From NCBI GenBank assembly GCA_013813265.1, contig JACCRY010000020.1:1-33796 (forward strand): 33,796 bases of DNA, written 5' to 3'. Position 1 is the first letter of the stretch. The number at the start of each line of letters is the position of its first letter. The position numbers and the translations under genes were made by a program. Source of the stretch: Parachlamydiaceae bacterium (GTDB lineage Bacteria > Chlamydiota > Chlamydiia > Chlamydiales > Parachlamydiaceae). Shown here in pieces: positions 453 through 32,388 of the stretch. The notes under the pieces were generated by a model. It had not been told where the DNA came from. It was given only the letters and a program-made list of their open reading frames with translations, and searched no databases.

Positions 453-893
453 ATGGCTTATATAGATAACACAAATTCTCCCAAATTCATTCAACTTCCA
501 ATCGCTGAAGTAGATGCTGCAGTTCTCATCCGGCAGCTTTCTAATGACAATTTTCATCTTCGTCAAGTAGTTGATAAGATGGCCAATACGTTGGCAATAC
601 AACAGGTATTGATCCAACAGCTCAGGGACGAAATTGCCAACCTCAAAGGACAGAAGCCAAAACCTAAGATTCCCCCTAGCAAGCTAGAAGGTCAAAACCG
701 CAAACCTGATTGGCACAAGAGAATTGGCCTACACGATAATCAAAGGAAAACAGTCTTATTTTCCATGTGGGTGAAAAGTGCTAAAAACCTTGATGCGCCA
801 TCTTTGCATAGTTGTAATTTACCTATTGCATTTAAAATTAGATTTGGTACAATCATTAGCGAATATAGCAGCTTACCTCGACTTTATGAGTAG
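453..893 (+). pseudogene. IS66-like transposase N-terminal remnant
   Basis: The 146-residue reading frame begins with a leucine-zipper-like stretch (residues about 25-63: LIRQLS, then LRQVV, then IQQLRDEIANLKG) followed by KPKPKIPPSKLEG. This is the arrangement at the start of many IS66-family transposases: a coiled coil, then a basic Pro-rich KPKIxPS segment. After about residue 90 (KPDWHKRI) the similarity stops and the rest reads like unrelated sequence, so the zinc-binding and DDE parts are missing. The product is probably non-functional. An unrelated short coiled-coil gene cannot be excluded. The nearby ISAs1 remnant supports the reading as insertion-sequence debris. Confidence 0.6.
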
Positions 894-946: not shown

Positions 947-2188
947 ATGGAAATTTCAAGTCAAGCCCAATACGGACTACCCTTATTCGTTGATTGGCTA
1001 CCTTCAGTTAACAATAAAAATTCTGAACAAAAAAAATCGTTAGCCGAACGAATTTATGATTGTTTTTTAGAAACCGTGGCAACGAGTTTAATTGTTCTTG
1101 AGCTTGCGGGGATGACTTTAGCAACCCTTACCTTTTTACCACTTTTTTCTGAAGCCTTTACGGATGAATGGAGACGAATCTTTAATTATTTCTTCAACAA
1201 TGATGAAAAAAGTGTGATAGTTACTAACACTCATTTTGAGGAAGCTGATAAAGACGATGATCTAACTGATATACACGAAGAAGATGATCTATCCTCCATC
1301 CCTCAACAAATACTTGTTGCGCGTCCATCACAAGAACCTTCCAATCTTCAATTTGATGAAGCAAACCAATTTGTCATTCTTCCTAAAGAACTTCTCCACG
1401 AAATTTTTATGCAGCTTTCCCGCACACAAGTCTCATCAGTCGGTCAAGTCCGAAAACTTTTTTTCGAAGTAACTTGCAACCCTCATTTCATTATGTCTTA
1501 TCATATTGAAAACAACATACGATTCACCACAGAAAAAATTCTTAATTTGGTTGAAAGCAAAGGCCACACGCTTGAAATCTTAGATCTCTCTGGGCTTATT
1601 AGGTACACTTCACAAATTACATCACTTCAATTTAGCACGATTGTATCGAGATGTCCTAATATTCATACTCTTAATTTGGGACGAGTGGATTGGATCACAA
1701 GTGACCATGTAAAAGAAATTAAATCTCTCACAAAACTGACTAACCTTGATTTTTGGGAATTTTTAGATCTTAAAGATGAGGATCTCATTGATCTCCCATT
1801 TTCTCTTCAACAACTTAATCTACGGGACTGCAAAGGACTTTCGGGGAAGGCAATAGAAAATTTTAGGCCCTTGCACCAGCTTCGTATTTTAAACTTAACT
1901 GGATGCATTTCTGCAACGACGCATGGGCTAACCCAACTCGAAGACTTTCAAGAACTTGAAGAAATCTACCTTATAAGCACCAACATAAATGATGAGGCAA
2001 TGAAATCTCTTTCTCAATTAAAAAAATTGAAAGTTATTTTTTTGACTAATTGTGCTGCAGTAACCGATGTAGGAATAAATATCCTCTTAGAAGAACTACC
2101 GAGTCTAAATTTATTAGCTCTGAAAGGTTGCACTGTTTCAGATGATTTAAAGCAAAGTATAAAAAATGAGACAAAAATACGGTTGTAG
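947..2188 (+). CDS. F-box and leucine-rich-repeat protein, possible host-directed effector
   Basis: This is a 413-residue protein. Residues about 44-66 form a hydrophobic, possibly membrane-spanning segment. Residues 97-117 are strongly acidic (EEADKDDDLTDIHEEDD). Residues about 141-181 look like an F-box (FVILPKELLHEIFMQL, with hydrophobic spacing typical of Skp1-binding F-boxes). From about 208 to 400 there are leucine-rich repeats of the cysteine-containing/RNI-like type, for example LEILDLSG, IHTLNLGR, LQQLNLRDC and LRILNLTGC. F-box plus LRR is a eukaryotic ubiquitin-ligase adaptor layout, and amoeba-associated chlamydiae are known to encode such proteins. The family's known role suggests that it would recruit host SCF machinery to targets bound by the repeats; that this protein is secreted is inference. 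There is no classical signal peptide. It stands alone, downstream of transposase debris. Confidence 0.75.
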   Translation: MEISSQAQYGLPLFVDWLPSVNNKNSEQKKSLAERIYDCFLETVATSLIVLELAGMTLATLTFLPLFSEAFTDEWRRIFNYFFNNDEKSVIVTNTHFEEADKDDDLTDIHEEDDLSSIPQQILVARPSQEPSNLQFDEANQFVILPKELLHEIFMQLSRTQVSSVGQVRKLFFEVTCNPHFIMSYHIENNIRFTTEKILNLVESKGHTLEILDLSGLIRYTSQITSLQFSTIVSRCPNIHTLNLGRVDWITSDHVKEIKSLTKLTNLDFWEFLDLKDEDLIDLPFSLQQLNLRDCKGLSGKAIENFRPLHQLRILNLTGCISATTHGLTQLEDFQELEEIYLISTNINDEAMKSLSQLKKLKVIFLTNCAAVTDVGINILLEELPSLNLLALKGCTVSDDLKQSIKNETKIRL

Positions 2189-6882: not shown

Positions 6883-7635
6883 TTGATACGCACACAACTT
6901 TTTTCATCTTTTATTAATGAGTATCCCAATTGGGAAACAGATGCCGCTGTAACTCAACCAAATAATAGCACATACAAAAGTATTCCTCGCTCTAGATACA
7001 ATAATACGCTAAATGTAAAAACTGGAGAAATTTTTTTAGGTGATGAAAGATACGTGATCTTTATTAAACATGTGGCCCTTTTAATTTTTCGCCCTATTCA
7101 ACTCACGTTTAAGACATTGTGGCATGCTTCATTGATAGGTCCATTAATCGTTGAGTTACATAATTTTCTCAATGATAAACAAACGTTTGAGCAATTTAAA
7201 GAAAACAACTTAAATTCTCTCTGTGACATTATACGCACTCCTATCTATGGAGTTGCTATGCTCACTGTCCACCTAGCCGGAATCATTCTAGGAATCTTTT
7301 GCCCAGAAACTCTTTATTACACAAGAGATCTTGTAGGACAACTTGAAAGAGAATTACTCAGACTAGACTGCGTTCAAAACACAGTCGCAAGTCTCTCTCC
7401 TTATGAAAGTTTATCTCCCTGTTTCAGCCCAATTAGCCACCTTATGATATTCAGAGACGTTAACAAAGAAAGTTTACCTATCTATGTTGATATTAACGAA
7501 TTTTTAGAAAATTCAGACATTTTTGAACCTAACTCTTGGGATTACTCCCCACAATTAAACTTAAAACAAGTTCAGCCCGAACAAAATTTGGATCCAAGTT
7601 TAGATGATCTTATCAAAAATGCAGTTCCCCGTTAA
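6883..7635 (+). CDS. Unknown membrane-associated protein, short paralog (TTG start)
   Basis: This is a 250-residue protein of a family I do not recognise. It aligns without gaps to residues 1-220 of the protein at 8271-9521; I count 129 identical residues in 220. The best conserved blocks are PNWE, VxTGEIFxGDERY, KTLWHAS, DIIRTPxYGxAML, AGIILGIFCP and YYTRD. Residues about 121-140 and 65-92 are hydrophobic and may enter a membrane. The start is TTG: the alignment places it exactly opposite the ATG of the paralog, and TAAGG sits at the same spacing upstream in both genes. The product ends near the point where the paralog continues for another 180 residues, so it is a short form or an old truncation. 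Confidence 0.7.
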   Translation: MIRTQLFSSFINEYPNWETDAAVTQPNNSTYKSIPRSRYNNTLNVKTGEIFLGDERYVIFIKHVALLIFRPIQLTFKTLWHASLIGPLIVELHNFLNDKQTFEQFKENNLNSLCDIIRTPIYGVAMLTVHLAGIILGIFCPETLYYTRDLVGQLERELLRLDCVQNTVASLSPYESLSPCFSPISHLMIFRDVNKESLPIYVDINEFLENSDIFEPNSWDYSPQLNLKQVQPEQNLDPSLDDLIKNAVPR

Positions 7636-8270: not shown

Positions 8271-9521
8271 ATGACTCGTATTGAACTTTTTTCTGAATTT
8301 ATTCAGAAACATCCAAATTGGGAAAGTGAAGCCCTCATTACAGAAACTAATGACTGCATCTACAAAAATATGCCGCGCGATAATTATAATAATGTCATAA
8401 ATGTAGAGACGGGGGAAATTTTTAAAGGTGATGAAAGATATTCGATTTACGCTAAACACATCGCATCCCTAATTGGCCGTCCAATTCACCTCTGTATTAA
8501 AACATTATGGCATGCTTCGATTATTGGCCCTGTTCTATATGAATTAAAGATGCTTTACACTGGAGAACAAACCCAAGACCAATTTGAAGAAAATATTAAA
8601 AATTCTTTTATAGATATCATACGTACCCCCCTATATGGAATTGCGATGCTCGCTACACAGATTGCAGGAATTATTCTTGGAATTTTTTGTCCCAATGTTC
8701 TTTATTATACTCGAGATTATGTAGGGAGAATGGAAAGATATCTCCTTAGAGTAGAAGAACTGGATCAAGAGTATTGCAGTTTTTCTCCTTATAAAAGCAT
8801 AACTCCATGCTTCAGCCCGAATAGCCACTTCATGAGAGTCAGAGACGTTAGCAGAGAAAATTTCCCTATATATTCCGCCATTAACGACTTTTTAGAAAAT
8901 TCAGATTCTTTTGAGCGAAATTTCTTGGATTTCCGGCTACAACCGTCTGATTTGCAAAACATAAATACTAACCCTATTGAATTCTCTATTGAAGAAAAGC
9001 GGGAGATTATAGCCAATCTCCCCCTCTGGTTTGTGGGACATTTTCCTGAGTTTGTAAGAAAATTCTTACTGATGAATAATTATAGTAGTCTAATCGTTCA
9101 CGATTTGGATACAAAGACAGATGAAGAAATAGAACAGCTTTTTATGTCCCAGCAAGAGTCGCTATTCATGGACTTCGTTAACCCTCTTTCGCAAACGAGC
9201 ACAACCTTAAGGGCCCTAACATTACCGAAAGACGATCCCAAATTGGCTTTTATTGTAAATCATATCCTTCATCAAGCTTGGAAGAACGTGCTTTTAGAGT
9301 CTTCTGAAAAGAGGGCTTATGCAGCATCTAATAGTGGGATAATGACACATGATTCAAATGCAATTCTTGTAGATGAATTACGCGAAAATGTAAATCAGAT
9401 GACAGAAATCAATCGCAATTTCTGGGTTAATGAAGCTAAAAGCTGCGCACTTCACGAAAAACTCAAGATGTACGGCACTCAACCTTGGTTTACAATTGCG
9501 GTTAGCCTTCCAGATTCTTAA
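8271..9521 (+). CDS. Unknown membrane-associated protein, long paralog
   Basis: This is a 416-residue protein of a family I do not recognise. Residues 1-220 match the preceding protein at about 59 percent identity without gaps, including hydrophobic stretches near residues 62-92 and 119-142 and the block AGIILGIFCP. Residues about 235-416 form an extra mostly helical domain (EEKREIIANLPLWFVGHFPE, later NHILHQAWKNVLLES) that the short paralog lacks. There is no signal peptide. AAGGAATTATT precedes the ATG. The last 20 bases overlap the end of the convergent acetyltransferase gene. The pattern of tandem duplication and size variation is common for chlamydial lineage-specific membrane or effector proteins, but no function can be assigned. 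Confidence 0.75.
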   Translation: MTRIELFSEFIQKHPNWESEALITETNDCIYKNMPRDNYNNVINVETGEIFKGDERYSIYAKHIASLIGRPIHLCIKTLWHASIIGPVLYELKMLYTGEQTQDQFEENIKNSFIDIIRTPLYGIAMLATQIAGIILGIFCPNVLYYTRDYVGRMERYLLRVEELDQEYCSFSPYKSITPCFSPNSHFMRVRDVSRENFPIYSAINDFLENSDSFERNFLDFRLQPSDLQNINTNPIEFSIEEKREIIANLPLWFVGHFPEFVRKFLLMNNYSSLIVHDLDTKTDEEIEQLFMSQQESLFMDFVNPLSQTSTTLRALTLPKDDPKLAFIVNHILHQAWKNVLLESSEKRAYAASNSGIMTHDSNAILVDELRENVNQMTEINRNFWVNEAKSCALHEKLKMYGTQPWFTIAVSLPDS

Positions 9522-10574: not shown

Positions 10575-12152
10575 TTATGCATACCAGGAATCGATTTCTT
10601 TTACTTCTGCATTTGCTTTTTCTTTTTTGTTCACATAATTGTCGAGTGCCTTCAAGAATAGTTCTATGTTATTCATTCTCCGATTCGAAAATTCTGGAGT
10701 GGAAATCATTGTGCTCTTATTCATTATAGGAGGGAAAATTCCCGGAAATTTTCTCATATTTTCGGAAAGGTGGGCCACATTTAGATCGTTAAATTCTTCA
10801 ATTAGCAACTTTATTTCGTCTACTCGTAACATTACTTCTTCCGTTGTAGCAAAAGCCGCATTTTGTCTAATATTCATACAAAGTTCTTCATAAATTTTTT
10901 CTTTTACAAATTTAGGCATGTTAAAAAATCTTGTTAATGTCATAGCTTGAGAATATTGACATTTCTGAGAAATGGAAGCTCCAAGCTTAGTGGAAAGAGC
11001 TTTTAGGACTTCATCATCTTTTGCTTTAAAATTTTGTATCACAACCGACGCACTCTTTTTTCCTCCTCTATCAGTGTTAGTATGAAAGTAAAGAAACTTT
11101 CCATCAGCTACAATAAAATCCTCAAGATAAGGTTCTCTTCTTAGGAAACTTTTGCTAATCTTCTTTTCCCAATTCCAAATTCCCCAGTCAGAACCATGGT
11201 CATATCCACAAATGAACTCCTTGTCATCTTTCATGCACAAGGATGAGGGAATTTTTTCACATTCAAGGGTAATAGAGCAATTGATTGTTTCTAAATTCCA
11301 GACCTTTATTGTCCGATCATAAGAACCTGAAAACAGTTTTTTATCGGCCATAATGAGGCAAGAAATTTTACCCGTATGTCCTTTCAAGGTTTTAGCAAAA
11401 TTCGACGTCTTTAAATCATAAACCCAGATACTCCCATCATCCTTTCCTAAAAAAATTTTCTCGTCAGCAACGGTAAAGGCAGTAGTCACGCTTTTGATGT
11501 CTGAGGATTTAAGGTCTAAGGTATTTAAACGATTTCCCGTCTTTAAATCTAGAATTACGACGCTCGTAGAACCCGTATAACTTGCAACAGCAAGACAAAA
11601 AAGTTTATTATCATTAATGACAATAGATTGTACACTGTATGGTAATTTTGCAAGAGGGGGAAGGGTTTCACCCGTCTTTAAACTCAAGCGTCCTATCCAC
11701 ATTGGAGGTTCTTCATCATCAACGGGATCATTCAAATTAAAAAGGAAAAAAAGAGTTTCATCAGCAACAGCCAGCATTTGTCCGTAAACGGGATAAGGAT
11801 CAGCAATATACTTCCTATCAATAATTTTTATCCAATTTTCAGTATAAACACCCTTTACAAGATTAGAGTTATAGATGCGGTTATCCTCATACATTTTTAT
11901 AAATAAGTTTCGTTGAGCTGGCTCCATTTTAAAGTCGCGAAGATATAATTTCATCCACAGGTTGTCATTAGATACCATTCGATGGATACTCTTGGAGAGC
12001 AAACTACAATTGGAGATTTCCTTAAGGGGAAGTTCCAACAGAATTGTATGAATGATGTCCTCAGGGATTGTTAAAAGCCTATATTGGTATTCTGGGAGCT
12101 CTACAAATGGCAATTTTTCTGTGTTTATACTTGCAGCACTAATTCTTAACAT
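10575..12152 (-). CDS. F-box/WD40-repeat protein, possible host-directed effector
   Basis: This is a 525-residue protein. An F-box occupies residues about 27-74 (LTIPEDIIHTILLELPLKEI, then LWMKLYLRDF). It is followed by a beta-propeller region from about 120 to 370. The clearest WD40 repeats are at 229-247 (ADEKIFLGKDDGSIWVYDL) and 252-287 (AKTLKGHTGKISCL, then LFSGSYDRTIKVWNL). The C-terminal 150 residues are helical and unassigned. F-box plus WD40 is the layout of eukaryotic SCF substrate adaptors such as Fbw7; in an intracellular bacterium it suggests a protein delivered into the host, which is inference. No signal peptide is visible. The gene appears to be transcribed alone. Confidence 0.8.
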   Translation of the reverse strand: MLRISAASINTEKLPFVELPEYQYRLLTIPEDIIHTILLELPLKEISNCSLLSKSIHRMVSNDNLWMKLYLRDFKMEPAQRNLFIKMYEDNRIYNSNLVKGVYTENWIKIIDRKYIADPYPVYGQMLAVADETLFFLFNLNDPVDDEEPPMWIGRLSLKTGETLPPLAKLPYSVQSIVINDNKLFCLAVASYTGSTSVVILDLKTGNRLNTLDLKSSDIKSVTTAFTVADEKIFLGKDDGSIWVYDLKTSNFAKTLKGHTGKISCLIMADKKLFSGSYDRTIKVWNLETINCSITLECEKIPSSLCMKDDKEFICGYDHGSDWGIWNWEKKISKSFLRREPYLEDFIVADGKFLYFHTNTDRGGKKSASVVIQNFKAKDDEVLKALSTKLGASISQKCQYSQAMTLTRFFNMPKFVKEKIYEELCMNIRQNAAFATTEEVMLRVDEIKLLIEEFNDLNVAHLSENMRKFPGIFPPIMNKSTMISTPEFSNRRMNNIELFLKALDNYVNKKEKANAEVKEIDSWYA

Positions 12153-23640: not shown

Positions 23641-26600
23641 CTACTCAGCTTCAGGCTCTTTAGGCAACAAAAATGATAGAACCTGCTGGTCTTTAAAAAC
23701 AGCGGCCGCTCTAGGCCCCACGAACCATTGAAGATTATCAAGAAGATTCAGATCCTCCATTACTTTCTTAACTTTAGTCGTAAGATCTTTATTAAGCTCA
23801 TTTGAATCCACCTCTTTAGGATGATAAGCTTTTGTAAAGGACAGGAATTTCCAAATCATACGGCGAAGCTTTTCGTCGCTCTCAGCACTCGACACAAAAT
23901 CCCAAGCTTGCTGGCTCACTCCAAAGTAGAGAATCATAGAAACTACAATCTTCGTAAACATACGCGCAAGCCATGTAATAGGGGCAAGCCAAGGACTCCA
24001 AGTAGCGAAATAAGCATCAATCTCCTTCATAACTTTAGTTTTCAACCTTTTCTTAAAGAGGCCTTCTGCAATAGTTTCTTTACCTACTAAATTTTTGTTA
24101 TCAATAAGATGCTCTTCTAAGTCTTTATAAGCCGCTATATCTTCCAGATCAACCTCTTCATCTTCCTGACCACCTCCTAACAGATTGATAGCCAACAGGA
24201 TACGGCTATCTTTATTTGTTACTCGTCCTACTTGATTGCCCAAAGCTTCAACCACATTATTCCAAGTGATCTCTTGAGCAATTTCCGGAACAAGCAAGAA
24301 GCTTGCACCTTTGCCTGGAAACATGATCTCAGCAAGCATCTCGCCGGATTTCACTTCAAAATGCCATTTCCTAATTCTTGCTTTGAAGGCTTCATCGTTT
24401 TCGTCCTCATTTTGTAGCAACGTAATGCCTAATTTCTTAAGTGTCGTCGGAGTTAAATCCTCTAGCTGATCGTCAGTTAATTCAACATAGCCCTCAGCGT
24501 CGTCCATAGATCCAAGCATGGGCAAAGCTGCTGCTAAAGCTTCAGATAAAAATGTTTCGGAATCAAGAATGCCTACAACATTTGGTTGTGTCATGATCTG
24601 GGTAATATTCGCATTAAGGATCTTGATAAGGAAAGGGCCTAAGTCTTTTAACTTCCCATCCGAATTATAATCCCCGCCCAGCACCTCAAGGAAAACTTTC
24701 TCTAAATCATTTACAAATCCGCCATATCCGGACAATCCATCTCTTGAATTCACATTTTTTAGAGCAACTAGCTTCTCTTTAACATAGTTTTGCATCTTGA
24801 GGACATTACTGTCATCAATGTCAACAAGTGGTTGAATCTTAGTAGCAACATCATCGATTTGGACCATGTACTCCTTAAATATAGCTTCAGCAAGGAATTC
24901 ATGCGTGATGACATCATGAAGAAATTCAGGCAATAGTGCTTTACGAAGCTTTTCAGGAACGACCTCTTTTAGCCAACTTGCAGCTGTTTTCGTTAAATCT
25001 TGAGCGTCATAGGCTTCTATCATTCTTGCTAAAACTTCGAGGAGCTTCTTCTCAGGAGATTCCCCTTTTTTAACAAGGAACAACTGTGCTACGCATATAT
25101 TTACTAAGGCATGTGCACTTTCTTTGATGATACCTGAGGTCGTTTCATCTCTAAGAAGGTCTTTGGCAATTTCATTAAACAGAAGCGGCTGATCAAAAAT
25201 CTTCCCTTTTTTCTCAGAATACTCGTCAATGGTGGAATCAATAGAGGCACAAATAGTGCCTACCACTTTTGCTAAACCACCGAACTTTCCTTCTTGTAAG
25301 CCTGAAGCCTTGTCTAATTTTTCGATTATTGTGATTGCTTTGATGTGCTTACTTTGTAAATCGATTATCTTTTTGCAGGTATCATTTACAAAGGATTCTT
25401 CAACCATCTTAATAATACTTTCACGAGTAACGAATTCTTCGTCCTTATTTGTAAAAATTGTTTCCCAAGTTTCTTTTGGCAGGATTTCATCGACGATTTT
25501 TTGCGCAATGTCATGTTGATTTCCAGATACTTTAGGATGATATTCATTGAGAATCGATATCAATTTTTGTCTAATGTTTACAACAGAACTTTTCGTTGCA
25601 GAAAGGATCACGTTCCCATTTTCATCTTTTTCGGCAGGTTTTAAAAACTCACTGATTATAAGGTAAACCGCACGTTTGACCAAAGTCTCGCGAATCTGTT
25701 TGATATTTACATTCACTTTCGTCGTCAAAAATTCTCTAAGTAAGGAATTAATAAAATCTGGAAAACCAGCAATTAAAGGTTTTTGACGTTTTAAAGTAAG
25801 CTTTTTGAGATCGTCACAATGAGCTTTAAAATGATCGGATGCTTCTTCATATTGGGCAAGATCTTCAATACAAGCCTCTACATCAAAATGTTCAAAGTTC
25901 ACATTTGCTTTAAGTTTTTTTATCAATAAGTCGAGGTCTAATCCCTTTTTTTCTGAAAAAACCTCCCTAATTGCTTCAAAAATAGCTTTATAGGTAGGAT
26001 CAAAAAAATCTTCCTCTTTAAGCAATTTCAGGCCAATTAAGGCATTTTCTGGACTACTGAGGATAGATCCCAAAACTTGTACTTCACATTTTTTTGATGA
26101 AGATTTATCTTCATTAGCTAGGTCAGTAATGAATTCATTTATTTTATCAAGGACCATAACATCGATAAATGCAACTAAATCTGTAGAGGCTTTCTCAATA
26201 TTTTCTAAGCGCTTTTCATGCTCTTTTGAATCAATTAGTCCAAGACCTTCAAGTTTATGATGCTTGTTGACTGGACCGCGTGGCTCAGCTCTAATTAAAG
26301 GACGAATTGGCCGTTCAAGTGGATCGCGTTTACGATGGAGTGAACCTAGAGGAAGAACGTGAGTTTCCAAGTCTAAAGCTTGAAGAGACCGCTTTTTCGA
26401 TCGTTCTTCAGCAATGACCTCATCCACTAAAAGTTCCCCTTTCTCTGAGTTCCCTTGAAGAGGTGCTTGCAACTTATGTGCTAATTCAACATAAGGAACT
26501 GCAAATGTAGCCAAAAATCCCTTTGTGATGACCTTTCGTAAAAACTTAGGCATCAGCTCCTTCCAGCCTTCTTTTGGAATAAATAAGTCGATCGATCTAT

Positions 26601-29600
26601 AGGCTAATTCCCAATATATAAAGTTATAAAGATCTAGACTGACTTCTCGCATTTTCAGGCTTTCAGAATCCTGAATCTGTACCTTCAAGACAATTCGATC
26701 TTTTTCAATTATAAATGAATTCGAATACCCTATAATGGTCTCTTTCTCCAACAATGCAGGATCTTGAACTGCTGACAAGTATATCGCCAAATTAATATCT
26801 GAGATCTGTGAAAAATCTCTGCAAGTCAAAGATTTTATATTATTTACCAGGGCATTCAACTTATGGTAACTTTCTTGCACAGCTGGAAGGAGTTTATTCG
26901 ATTTAAGCGCCAATGGAGAACTGTTTTCAGAGCTATATGCAGATTCCTCAAGAAGGTCTGATTCAGTCAAAGACTTTATCAAAATTTCGGAATCAGAAAG
27001 ATCCGAAATACGCCCTGATAATAGTTTCCCGAGGATCGCATAGGCATACTTAATAGCTAAGTTTGTGACAGGCTTAACGCTGGAAGATTTCTCTTTTATC
27101 AACAAATCATTGAGAATCTCTTTCATCCAAAGTTCATCAGGTTTATCCTTAGCTTTAGGTTTGCAAAAATCTGCTAAAGCATCTTTTACTTTATTTTCTA
27201 TGAAACCAGCAGTATCATCCAAGTCATCACCTTTACCGACCTGCTCTTTTCCTGAATGCATGAGTTCTTTCATTTCAGCGGAAAACTCATTCCAATCTTT
27301 AAGGTAATCGAACAAAAGGCTTCCAACTTGTGCTCTTGTGAGGAATTTTCTAAATTGTTCCGGCACACGCTCGTTCCATAGTTCTTCAGGAACCAGTTGA
27401 TCCATCAAAACAATTACAGTTTCATTAAGGATCTGATTTGTTTGGACCCAAATGTAACACTGTTTGAAACTTACTTCCACTAATGGATCGCTCTTTTTTT
27501 CTTTTCGATAAGCAGCTAGATCATCTTCTGTAACAGTTTCTTCAAAAAATGTATCGTTTTCCAATTTAGCTTCAGCATCCTCTTCACCTATTAAATCCCA
27601 AGCCCTCTTAACGGCATCGATAGTTCCACAGCAGGTATTAGCAGCGTTTAAAAGGCTCCACAAAAGATCTGTTGCACGCTCCTCTGATGTCTTTTCGTCT
27701 TTAGGGTTAAGATGGAATGCAAAGATTGATTCAATAACATGAGGAACCGCATCCTTAATTAAATGAGCTATTTGACCATTTTTTTCTAATGCTTTGCCAA
27801 AAAACTTATCTAAGATTGAGAAATCAATCTGCCCTTTTTCTTTGTTTTCTGATTGTAATAATTTGCCAAACTTGATACTCGATAAACCCTTTTTCATTTT
27901 TTTGACAACCGCTTTAATGATAGGAAAAACTTTCTCTTTAATTCCCTCATCCAGCTTATATTGTTTAGCAGCCTCAGATTTATGATCAGCTGCAGATTTG
28001 AAAATGACTACTTTTTCAAAAATGTCAGAAATGTAAGGAACAATCAAGTTATCCCCCATCATTTCCCATAATTTAGACTTTCTGAACATAGGAGGAAGTA
28101 AAGAATTAAATAATTCTTGAGGTAAAAGTATAGAGGTGAGATCTCGAACAAGTGATTTAATCAAGAGTTCTTTGGCTTGTTCGATGAGTTGGTCTTTTGA
28201 ATTTTGTAATTTAACTTTAACGTTCAGATCTTTTGCAAATTTTCCAATTGCCCTCTGTAGGAACTCAATGTCATACTCGTCATTCCTCAAAAACTCAACA
28301 GTCTCCTTGATGTCGTCAAAACCCTCTATAGCCTTTTCAATCATTTTGCCAATTAAAAAAGGAAAGACGTCAACTGCTCCACGTTCTACATTGCAATGCT
28401 TTTGTATAGTCTTTGAGAGTACGGTCATCAAAATATCTTCTACTACATTTATAACCTTAGCCTTAGCCAATTCCTTACCAATCCCAACATTTTCACCATC
28501 TTTCGGTTTTTGTAGCAGATGAGATATCATCTCGTTAAGAAACGGATAGCCCAAATCAATAACTTCTTCGCCCTTGGATGCTTTCTCTTCAATCGTCGTG
28601 ATGAATCCTATGAGTAGCCCGTTAATAAAGTCGATCAACTCTGTAACATTCGCATCGATAAGATAAACGCGAGCCTTATCACCTTTTCCTTCCAGACGAT
28701 TTAAATGTTCATGCAACTCTAAGCTTTTTTCTCCAATTAACTTATAAAGTGGGTGGAAGACATTATTGGCAGGAAAAAAGGATGGGAAAAATGCAGAAAA
28801 TTTATCGGTATTTAATTCTTCGTCGAGCACCTTTCGAGCTATTCGGTCATAAATAATAACTTTTAGAAAATTTCGTGCTTCATCTTCCCAAGTTAGCGAC
28901 TCTCTAGCAAGAAGCGCTTTAATTTCTATGGAATTTGAATCTATCCACAGCTCATCAGTCTTCGAATATTCCTTCCATGTATTTAACACAGCCAATAACT
29001 CATCACGAGTCTGCAGTTCTTCATTAGTATGCCAAGCCATTTTGTAAAATCTTTGAGCCTCGATGAGCCAGTCTATACTCTGCCGGTCAAATAGTTTTTT
29101 AGCTTCTAACTGGTAGGGATTCTCATCCTTGGAGAAGTGGAGGAGATGCGTACATAAGCCCCCTCTTTGCATCTGATTGAATCGTTCTAAATAACTAATC
29201 AGAAGCTCCTGTGACTCCCCGCTTAGTTTATTTAATATCCCATCTAAAAGATTATTCCGACGTTCTTCGGCTGTTTCATTCTCCTTTGGAGTTAAGACAA
29301 CCGCTAAAATTGCTTTAATAGCCATTTTTATCTGGTTCGATATCACATCCCAAGCCCAAGAAATGCTTCCTTCATCCTCAATCCCCTCTCCTTTCAAAAG
29401 AACCTGATTGATGTTAGATGTTAAGAATTCTTTGTTTCTTTTATGCGTCAGAAAAGGAAATTCTAGAGAAAGTCCATCTTCCTGTAAGGACTCAATTTGT
29501 TTTTCAACAAGATAATCTGCGAATTCTGACACGCCCTCGTTCTGAACTAAAATGTCTTCGCTACTTTTTAGCTCAAGTCTCTTTTGAACTTTACAAAGCT

Positions 29601-30414
29601 CAACGCCATACTCGATAAATAATGCTTCTAAATCATCTTTACCAGGAATACCTGTTATTGTCTGAAATGCTTTAGAATAAAGTGCCCATTGAAGCAGATC
29701 AGATCTATTTTTACTATGTTCTTCATCAAAACCGATGTTTAGAAGAAAATTATTAAATAATTTCTTTAACTCAGTTTTAAGCTCTTCTACACCACCGGCA
29801 TATGGCCTTTGAGAGAGAACAATCATTTGGCCATTTTGAGAAGAAATCAAGTCTAGTTCTTGTGAGTCGCCATCCACAGATTCAATTAGCGCTGAACCAT
29901 CATTATCCACATTTTCATCCACGATAATTTTGGATTGGATATCTTCAGATTCAATTCCAAGGTCATATTTTAATAAATCATGCGTATACAATTCATCTAA
30001 AAGATTGGTAATTAAAAGTTTTGCAAAATCCTCGCTTTCTACAACTTGATTTTCTTCTCCCAGAATGGATCCCATAGCAAGAAGGACTTCCGCCATCAAC
30101 ACAGAAATGTTTTGAATATTTTCTTGATTTTGACAATTATCTTTACTTTTTAACTTTTTCTCGACAGCAAAACTAGCCAGATCCATTAAAAGATTTCCCC
30201 ACGAAGCGTCAATCTTTTTTATCCTCTCTAAATAAACGGGATTGTTTGGCTTAGTGGCCCAAGTAGCTACACTAGCCACAGGATTAGCAATCCAAGTCGC
30301 AGCAGTCGCAATCCAACCTTTCTCTTCAACTTTCGGAAGAGAAGTGACGGATGAAACAAGAGGACCTGTCGTACTCGTAGTAGAGGTCGTGTTAAGATTG
30401 CTTTGCATGGCCAC
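23641..30414 (-). CDS. Giant 2257-residue protein with a DnaB-N-like segment and degenerate repeats
   Basis: I recognise no family for the whole protein. It is acidic, almost entirely helical and lacks a signal peptide. Residues 5-20 are Thr/Ser-rich, and 33-57 hold a tandem TWIANP/TWATKP motif. A degenerate motif of the form P-x-E-L/W, a few residues, P-x-F-x-R/H, recurs near 764, 1008, 1279 and 1819, with weaker copies near 537 and 1645. A second motif (L-x-P-K, then T-x-EER, then LLxxxLN) occurs at 373-395 and 901-923. Residues about 1443-1543 resemble the N-terminal domain of DnaB helicase: VLGSIL, EEDFFDPTYKAIFEAI and LDLDLLIKKLK appear in that order. A basic Pro/Arg-rich stretch (1360-1386) precedes it. 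A hydrophobic segment lies at about 2140-2166. GGAG five bases upstream supports the start; promoter and terminator are both clear, so it is a single-gene unit. The role is unknown. Confidence 0.8.
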   Translation of the reverse strand: MAMQSNLNTTSTTSTTGPLVSSVTSLPKVEEKGWIATAATWIANPVASVATWATKPNNPVYLERIKKIDASWGNLLMDLASFAVEKKLKSKDNCQNQENIQNISVLMAEVLLAMGSILGEENQVVESEDFAKLLITNLLDELYTHDLLKYDLGIESEDIQSKIIVDENVDNDGSALIESVDGDSQELDLISSQNGQMIVLSQRPYAGGVEELKTELKKLFNNFLLNIGFDEEHSKNRSDLLQWALYSKAFQTITGIPGKDDLEALFIEYGVELCKVQKRLELKSSEDILVQNEGVSEFADYLVEKQIESLQEDGLSLEFPFLTHKRNKEFLTSNINQVLLKGEGIEDEGSISWAWDVISNQIKMAIKAILAVVLTPKENETAEERRNNLLDGILNKLSGESQELLISYLERFNQMQRGGLCTHLLHFSKDENPYQLEAKKLFDRQSIDWLIEAQRFYKMAWHTNEELQTRDELLAVLNTWKEYSKTDELWIDSNSIEIKALLARESLTWEDEARNFLKVIIYDRIARKVLDEELNTDKFSAFFPSFFPANNVFHPLYKLIGEKSLELHEHLNRLEGKGDKARVYLIDANVTELIDFINGLLIGFITTIEEKASKGEEVIDLGYPFLNEMISHLLQKPKDGENVGIGKELAKAKVINVVEDILMTVLSKTIQKHCNVERGAVDVFPFLIGKMIEKAIEGFDDIKETVEFLRNDEYDIEFLQRAIGKFAKDLNVKVKLQNSKDQLIEQAKELLIKSLVRDLTSILLPQELFNSLLPPMFRKSKLWEMMGDNLIVPYISDIFEKVVIFKSAADHKSEAAKQYKLDEGIKEKVFPIIKAVVKKMKKGLSSIKFGKLLQSENKEKGQIDFSILDKFFGKALEKNGQIAHLIKDAVPHVIESIFAFHLNPKDEKTSEERATDLLWSLLNAANTCCGTIDAVKRAWDLIGEEDAEAKLENDTFFEETVTEDDLAAYRKEKKSDPLVEVSFKQCYIWVQTNQILNETVIVLMDQLVPEELWNERVPEQFRKFLTRAQVGSLLFDYLKDWNEFSAEMKELMHSGKEQVGKGDDLDDTAGFIENKVKDALADFCKPKAKDKPDELWMKEILNDLLIKEKSSSVKPVTNLAIKYAYAILGKLLSGRISDLSDSEILIKSLTESDLLEESAYSSENSSPLALKSNKLLPAVQESYHKLNALVNNIKSLTCRDFSQISDINLAIYLSAVQDPALLEKETIIGYSNSFIIEKDRIVLKVQIQDSESLKMREVSLDLYNFIYWELAYRSIDLFIPKEGWKELMPKFLRKVITKGFLATFAVPYVELAHKLQAPLQGNSEKGELLVDEVIAEERSKKRSLQALDLETHVLPLGSLHRKRDPLERPIRPLIRAEPRGPVNKHHKLEGLGLIDSKEHEKRLENIEKASTDLVAFIDVMVLDKINEFITDLANEDKSSSKKCEVQVLGSILSSPENALIGLKLLKEEDFFDPTYKAIFEAIREVFSEKKGLDLDLLIKKLKANVNFEHFDVEACIEDLAQYEEASDHFKAHCDDLKKLTLKRQKPLIAGFPDFINSLLREFLTTKVNVNIKQIRETLVKRAVYLIISEFLKPAEKDENGNVILSATKSSVVNIRQKLISILNEYHPKVSGNQHDIAQKIVDEILPKETWETIFTNKDEEFVTRESIIKMVEESFVNDTCKKIIDLQSKHIKAITIIEKLDKASGLQEGKFGGLAKVVGTICASIDSTIDEYSEKKGKIFDQPLLFNEIAKDLLRDETTSGIIKESAHALVNICVAQLFLVKKGESPEKKLLEVLARMIEAYDAQDLTKTAASWLKEVVPEKLRKALLPEFLHDVITHEFLAEAIFKEYMVQIDDVATKIQPLVDIDDSNVLKMQNYVKEKLVALKNVNSRDGLSGYGGFVNDLEKVFLEVLGGDYNSDGKLKDLGPFLIKILNANITQIMTQPNVVGILDSETFLSEALAAALPMLGSMDDAEGYVELTDDQLEDLTPTTLKKLGITLLQNEDENDEAFKARIRKWHFEVKSGEMLAEIMFPGKGASFLLVPEIAQEITWNNVVEALGNQVGRVTNKDSRILLAINLLGGGQEDEEVDLEDIAAYKDLEEHLIDNKNLVGKETIAEGLFKKRLKTKVMKEIDAYFATWSPWLAPITWLARMFTKIVVSMILYFGVSQQAWDFVSSAESDEKLRRMIWKFLSFTKAYHPKEVDSNELNKDLTTKVKKVMEDLNLLDNLQWFVGPRAAAVFKDQQVLSFLLPKEPEAE

Positions 30415-30886: not shown

Positions 30887-30917
30887 AATAAAATTTTAAT
30901 ATTAAATTGAGGTTCAC

Positions 30918-32388
30918 ATGTTGTCAACAAGTATAAGTTCTTTACCACCCCATTTTACTGGAATAAATCCAGATACAAATTTAATGAAACTTCAACTGGA
31001 ACCCTCGCATATGTTTGATGCTTCAACCGTTTTGGCTAAGATTCCTCCTCATGAAAGAGCGGATATAGTCGACCAGGTATTAACTTTGAAAGGGATCCAA
31101 GTGAAGAACGATCTTGGAGAATTTTTATCTCCATTGGCTCTTCTTGCAGGTTGTTTCTGCCATTTTTGAAATATTTAAAGAAGGAGTCCCAGGAGCTAAT
31201 TACATAGAAGTTATAGATTTACTAGCCTTAGCCTCTGAAAAAAATGAATTAGATCGTTTGATCAAGATCGCAAAAGAATGGTTTTTTTCATTCGATCTAA
31301 AGGAAAAGCATAAGCTAATTTTATCGGGGAATGAATCAGATTCAACGAACGGTGTTTATTTGTGTTGTATTTACGGCCTCAAAGCCGCCTCTGAAGAAAT
31401 TAACACAGAGGGCATTCAAAACCTAGTGAATCCTCTTTCTGAAAAAGAAAAAACGGATCTTGTAGAAGTGATTCACAAACTTCATTTGAAAGCTTTTGAA
31501 TTTCAGACAACTCTTCAGATCTTATTAGGAATTCCCCATGAAGAAAGATGGATGGTCGTGGATCAGGTATGTTCTTTGACCAAGATTCGAATGAGTGATG
31601 AAGATGGAATTCGGTTTACTTCTTTGAATGCTTTAAAAAAAATGGCCATAATAAGTCCTGCAAAAAGAAAAAGAGCTATGGAAATGCTCATGGATTTATT
31701 TGTTGCAGGAGTATCAAGGGCAAATTATACAAGTGTATTAGATTTTTTGATTGAAAAGCCTGAAAATCAATTAATTCCTATCATTCGAATAGCTAAGGCA
31801 GTGTTTTTTAATGCAGATTCTTCCTGTATTAAAGTGTTAAAGTGTCTTGCTGAAATACGCGGCATTGAAAATTTCTCCGAAGATAGACTCATCGCTTTTG
31901 AAAGCCTGAAAAATTTTGAAGGAATAAAAGGCTGTGATGATGGGAAGAAAATCATCTATAAAATTTTATTTGGCCACGAGAGAACCATACCACAGTGCGC
32001 GTTTGATGTGCCGGGACAAGATCCTGAGCTTTTCTGTTGGATGGCGAAACTTATCAAAGAAAGTAATGATCAAGATCTTCAAATGTGCTTTCAAACGTGG
32101 ATGAAAGAAAATGCAGCCCTTGTAAAATTCTATCATGCCTGCAACATACTTCTTACATCTCATCAGAACATAAAAAAACTATCTTCGCAAAAAATCTTTG
32201 TGGGTTATGTTACACGACAAGAAAAGCCATTTCCAAAAAATTTGCCAGGTAAGCATATTCCTCAAAACAAAACTTCTATTAAAAACATTAAATCAGCGAT
32301 TAAATACTTCCTTGATTTTAAATTTAATTCTGATAATGGGGAAAATGTCACGATTTTTCAATGCACAACTACAGCTTTTTTTATTTAA
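30918..32388 (+). pseudogene. Helical-repeat protein gene broken by a frameshift near 31150
   Basis: The first frame (30918-31169) gives 83 residues and the next frame (coding from about 31145 to 32388) gives about 410. Together they hold two copies of one repeat. Copy 1 begins VLAKIPPHERADIVDQVLTL in the first frame and resumes as VVSAIFEIFKEGVPGANYIE in the second. Copy 2 is continuous (ILLGIPHEERWMVVDQVCSL to LFVAGVSRANYTSVLDFL). Aligning them shows that copy 1 lacks about ten residues exactly where the frame changes, which fits a small deletion. The second frame's own ATG (31114) lies upstream of the break, so a separate gene is less likely. The C-terminal part ends in FQCTTTAFFI at a run of seven T, overlapping the methyltransferase frame. 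I recognise no family for the repeat; HEAT-like helical folding is a guess. Confidence 0.6.

Follow-up and report, generated by a model that had tools for sequence, protein, structure and literature searches.

A DnaB-type helicase head, as recognized by profile searches and structure prediction, is embedded in the middle of a giant helical tandem-repeat protein of a Parachlamydiaceae bacterium. It resides in a 108-residue (324-nt) insertion at residues 1437–1544 (positions 25783–26106, minus strand) of the window, the 33,796-nt stretch of DNA analysed here. The insertion is absent in five of five homologues that can be aligned across the site. The DnaB N-terminal domain, DnaB_N, occurs almost wholly at the starts of helicases, and the primase DnaG carries a structural relative at its C-terminal end. 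A motorless helicase head placed mid-chain in a giant protein is a new architecture of this known domain.

DnaB_N match and predicted fold of the insert

The host gene is an open reading frame on the minus strand at 23641–30414, encoding 2257 amino acids counted from a GTG codon. Because the homologues begin with MQS or MQP, the ATG at residue 3 (30408) appears to be the likelier start codon, giving a protein of 2255 amino acids at 23641–30408. Within it, the Pfam profile PF00772 (DnaB_N) matches residues 1439–1537 (25804–26100, minus strand) over profile positions 4–102 of 103, with a score of 54.4 bits (E = 1.4e-14; cut-off 23), and a whole-genome profile search placed DnaB_N at the same position with 58.5 bits. 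The NCBIfam model for DnaB, TIGR00665, aligns residues 1440–1544 with model positions 5–109 of 435 (32 bits vs 385), and the restriction of the alignment to these positions indicates that only the N-terminal part of DnaB is present. A phmmer search of the PDB retrieved Aquifex DnaB (E = 5.9e-5). The whole source genome contains exactly three DnaB_N matches, namely the chromosomal dnaB (a 490-aa frame), the giant protein, and the C-terminal part of DnaG. Judged by these profile statistics, the match in the giant protein is far beyond chance.

Beyond DnaB_N, a Pfam scan of the whole giant protein returned zero families above cut-off. Neither DnaB_C, a Walker A motif, a helicase core, nor any other ATPase family was found anywhere in the 2257 residues with Pfam and NCBIfam, and Pfam gave no match to a zinc-binding or Toprim primase domain. 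The DnaG of this genome is encoded by a separate gene.

An AlphaFold2 model of residues 1431–1553 reached a pLDDT of 82 and a pTM of 0.73. The underlying alignment included 30 DnaB heads, so that the fold match depends in part on the sequence match. In a Foldseek comparison with the PDB, the best matches were all DnaB (TM-scores of 0.66–0.79, normalized to the model; probability 1.00), with E-values of at least 0.006, a modest level that we take to reflect the small size and helical nature of the domain. A second structural aligner superposed the predicted insert on DnaB N-terminal domains with a Z-score of 15.9, followed by T4 gp41 (9.8) and the DnaG C-terminal domain (6.8), with unrelated entries at about 3. 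The structures 1JWE and 3GXV, which are isolated DnaB heads from E. coli and from H. pylori, match the insert model. A model computed from host homologues only, with no DnaB rows, gave the same helix order within the insert at a pLDDT of about 30–53. When host homologues and DnaB heads were aligned together, the host rows came out misaligned, and this alignment was left out of structure prediction. Together with the profile matches, the models assign the insert a predicted DnaB head fold. The original prediction of a DnaB N-terminal-like segment at 25786–26088 (residues 1443–1543), followed by neither a Walker A motif nor a helicase core, is thereby confirmed; its coordinates fall inside the true insert.

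Similarity to the canonical domain (PF00772; 1JWE, 4ESV, 2R6A, and 3GXV) extends over the whole length of the profile, the helix order, the predicted fold, and the hydrophobic core, with hydrophobic residues kept in 28 of 35 hydrophobic columns. In contrast to that domain, the insert lies mid-chain in a non-helicase protein without an ATPase domain, retains a single one of six conserved glycine or proline columns, and consists of the head plus the first hairpin helix, the second hairpin helix apparently being absent. The conserved Gly-Gly and AGTSA-type (hairpin-start) motifs at the head–hairpin junction are also missing. These losses weigh against a canonical use of the insert. With the head cut after the first hairpin helix and both motifs lost, dimerization of the usual kind, through which the primase site is displayed, is unlikely, although the head might still bind on its own. 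The C-terminal helicase-binding domain of DnaG resembles the insert in presenting a DnaB_N-like fold, structurally related to the DnaB head, on a non-helicase protein. Its structural match is much weaker, however, and the giant protein lacks primase domains; a DnaG origin of the insert is disfavoured by the Z-scores (6.8 vs 15.9).

Host protein family and anatomy of the insertion site

The giant protein is a member of a small family that evolves quickly, is confined to Chlamydiota, and consists of mostly helical tandem-repeat proteins ranging from 852 to 2322 amino acids. Its membership is evident from homology across the C-terminal 700 residues and from the repeat modules. An alignment search of 234 Chlamydiota genomes identified clear homologues in three genomes beyond the source (one each in G001 and G086, and three in G085, which is SZAS-7) and weak homologues in a fourth (G102); a conserved-peptide scan of 84,980 species recovered the same members and nothing beyond. 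The same-genus homologue is recorded as Parachlamydiaceae bacterium MGR_bin328, and the others come from Chlamydiales bacterium bin.577 and from SZAS-7, which carries the record label Verrucomicrobia, yet is assigned to the same order as the source genome. These proteins share the same modules and are homologous over most of their length, but they lack DnaB_N.

Secondary structure prediction describes the giant protein as mostly helical, and AlphaFold2 modelled the host region poorly (pLDDT 51). BLASTP did not detect internal repeats, whereas profile–profile comparison did. Module A (residues 1405–1700; 25315–26202, minus strand), with the insert removed, matches module B (residues 1700–1960; 24535–25317, minus strand) with a probability of 98 (E = 1e-13). 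Probabilities of up to 95 were obtained for matches of preceding regions to module B; some of the high values between adjacent regions stem from overlapping boundaries. At the level of profiles, the comparison shows what appears to be an array of degenerate tandem modules. In one homologue (L058:1583–6211, minus strand), the equivalent of module B matches DUF445 with an E-value of 1.6e-8, barely above the cut-off, and the whole-genome scan score was lower and sub-threshold. This match would provide a possible link between the orphan family and a known family of helical proteins. The N-terminus of the giant protein is rich in Ser, Thr, and Gln and has no evident signal peptide, as might be expected of a type III secretion substrate.

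The insertion interrupts the helix 1–helix 2 loop of module A, and the equivalent loop in module B has no insertion. The five alignable homologues run gap-free across the site, from a helix ending near DLA.ED or DLG into a helix starting LP.FLD.LIK. The flanks align closely, the third SZAS-7 copy reading DLAKED-KPL where the giant protein has DLANED, the 108 additional residues, and then KPL. Host homology resumes at residue 1545, the insert ending within the first hairpin helix, and the G+C content of the insert is the minimum of the gene (31% vs about 38%). A 7-base TCAAAAA match close to both ends of the insert was considered as a possible duplication and rejected, being too short and AT-rich.

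Five homologues, one of them of the same genus, continue uninterrupted past the site, so a clean insertion is the best description of the DnaB_N segment, and the alignments make it almost certain that a domain was inserted in frame into the inter-helix loop. It is important to consider that the source is a draft genome of 256 contigs, so that the assembler might have joined the insert to the gene; a DnaB_N–haemagglutinin chimera in another draft genome, described below, could be a comparable error. Such an artefact is nevertheless highly improbable, since both junctions are in frame within a single 2263-codon open frame, the insert is flanked by host homology on both sides, and the assembly contains its DNA only once. 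For an authentic insertion, the absence of the insert from the same-genus homologue and from more distant ones makes a single gain in the lineage of this species the apparent simplest history. Recruitment of the domain into a non-helicase protein within one lineage, as originally proposed, is thus supported by the profile match, the fold, and the clean absence from five homologues.

Other genes in the window were inspected as well. A 525-aa protein at 10575–12152 (minus strand) combines an F-box-like N-terminus with WD40 repeats, which are eukaryote-like domains, and a 413-aa protein at 947–2188 (plus strand) shows, by eye, an F-box followed by leucine-rich repeats. Two adjoining, similar proteins at 6883–7635 and 8271–9521 (plus strand) contain paired hydrophobic segments and look, by eye, like proteins of the inclusion-membrane type; neither has a Pfam match. 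Similar sequence motifs recur in two overlapping open frames at 30915–32388 (plus strand), where the frame apparently shifts between about 31105 and 31166; a frameshift or a sequencing error may have split a single gene there. A short frame at 453–893 (plus strand), without a Pfam match, resembles by eye an N-terminal remnant of an IS66-type transposase. Anti-phage defence families were looked for, and none was found.

Distribution of DnaB_N among Chlamydiota and possible donors

Of the giant-family proteins in the 234 genomes of Chlamydiota, only that of the source genome contains DnaB_N or the insertion. The PF00772 matches in these genomes lie mostly in frames of about 470–540 amino acids, the normal helicase size, with some of 600–1160 amino acids. 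Two of the long frames (908 and 1163 amino acids) were read as candidates for further fusions, and both proved to be DnaB with one or two inteins. Intein-bearing chromosomal DnaB of Chlamydiota lies at L128 and L129, with two inteins within one gene of G141.

Apart from these frames, the only settings of PF00772 are the giant protein and a chimera in the draft genome G028. The latter (L035:1896–5021, minus strand) comprises 1041 amino acids and joins a complete DnaB head in frame to a partial filamentous-haemagglutinin-like protein. Its contig is plasmid-like and also encodes ParA, and a 2666-codon frame at another place in G028 resembles the tail of the chimera. The chimera is like the giant protein in carrying a motorless DnaB_N in a large unrelated protein, but it is a terminal fusion with a complete, well-conserved head (101 bits). 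Its probable components are a plasmid dnaB that has been cut short and a fragment of an adhesin, which may have been brought together by rearrangement of a plasmid gene or by faulty assembly.

The nearest relatives of the insert are this chimera and accessory Chlamydiota helicases, at 32–35% identity. Examples of the latter are proteins, as at L007 and L042, that have a DnaB head before an ATPase core that looks RepA-like, and proteins of this type probably stem from mobile elements. A recent copy from the genome's own dnaB was rejected, the identity being 26% with no DNA match, and no DNA copy of the insert was found elsewhere in the source assembly. A search for plasmid and phage donors gave no credible match, with viral contigs reaching 25–28% identity. 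In a tree of the domain, the insert sits on an extremely long branch that does not place it with a particular donor.

Possible roles of the inserted helicase head

Based on these data, a simple model would suggest that the lineage of this species acquired a fragment of a helicase gene, chromosomal or plasmid-borne, in a single event. The head would fold by itself, as the isolated E. coli and H. pylori heads do, and its ends would be compatible with a helix–loop–helix site; it would therefore project from the scaffold without disturbing it. Its present role, of which we are less sure, would be that of an add-on bulge for protein contact or self-association rather than primase or helicase binding at the replication fork. 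On balance, the evidence tips modestly towards an autonomously folded bulge that serves as a protein-binding or self-association module and is possibly only tolerated.

The main rival holds that the insert is a neutral passenger: a helicase gene fragment that entered a tolerant loop in frame and is now drifting, its frame kept open solely by the need for the remainder of the protein. Confinement to one lineage, the strong divergence with loss of most conserved glycines and prolines, and the 713 downstream residues that require an open frame are all consistent with such a history. However, the hydrophobic core pattern (28 of 35 columns) and a full-length, 54-bit profile match have been kept despite a best identity of about 32%, which makes a purely passive insert unlikely.

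Alternatively, the folded bulge could contact or mimic the replication machinery, the head binding the helicase-binding domain of DnaG or the N-terminal collar of DnaB and thereby tethering, sequestering, or sensing it. The same head fold binds primase in DnaB (PMC12418098, PMC12278352); for DnaB and DnaG of M. tuberculosis, a binding strength of 0.2 micromolar is reported (PMC12278352). The source genome encodes a DnaG with a recognizable C-terminal domain, the hydrophobic core pattern of the insert is retained, and fragments that consist of the head alone are known to fold (PDB 1JWE and 3GXV). Against this, primase binds at the interface between DnaB N-terminal domains (PMC12418098), and helicase loaders bind the LH–DH module, beyond the segment found in the insert (PMC9912922). 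Given these positions and the lost junction motifs and second hairpin helix, canonical assembly is unlikely, and five other copies of the host protein manage without the insert. A replication contact or mimic thus seems improbable, and the specific proposal that primase or helicase docks onto the giant scaffold through a co-opted helicase head is decidedly doubtful.

The giant protein nonetheless represents a clear natural case of the reuse of a replication domain, with the empty site visible in its relatives. If the insert still binds primase or helicase, the protein would represent a new type of replication partner, and a true docking site would link a lineage-specific structural protein to chromosome replication. 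If it does not, the protein would indicate that a helicase head can act as a generic folded insert.
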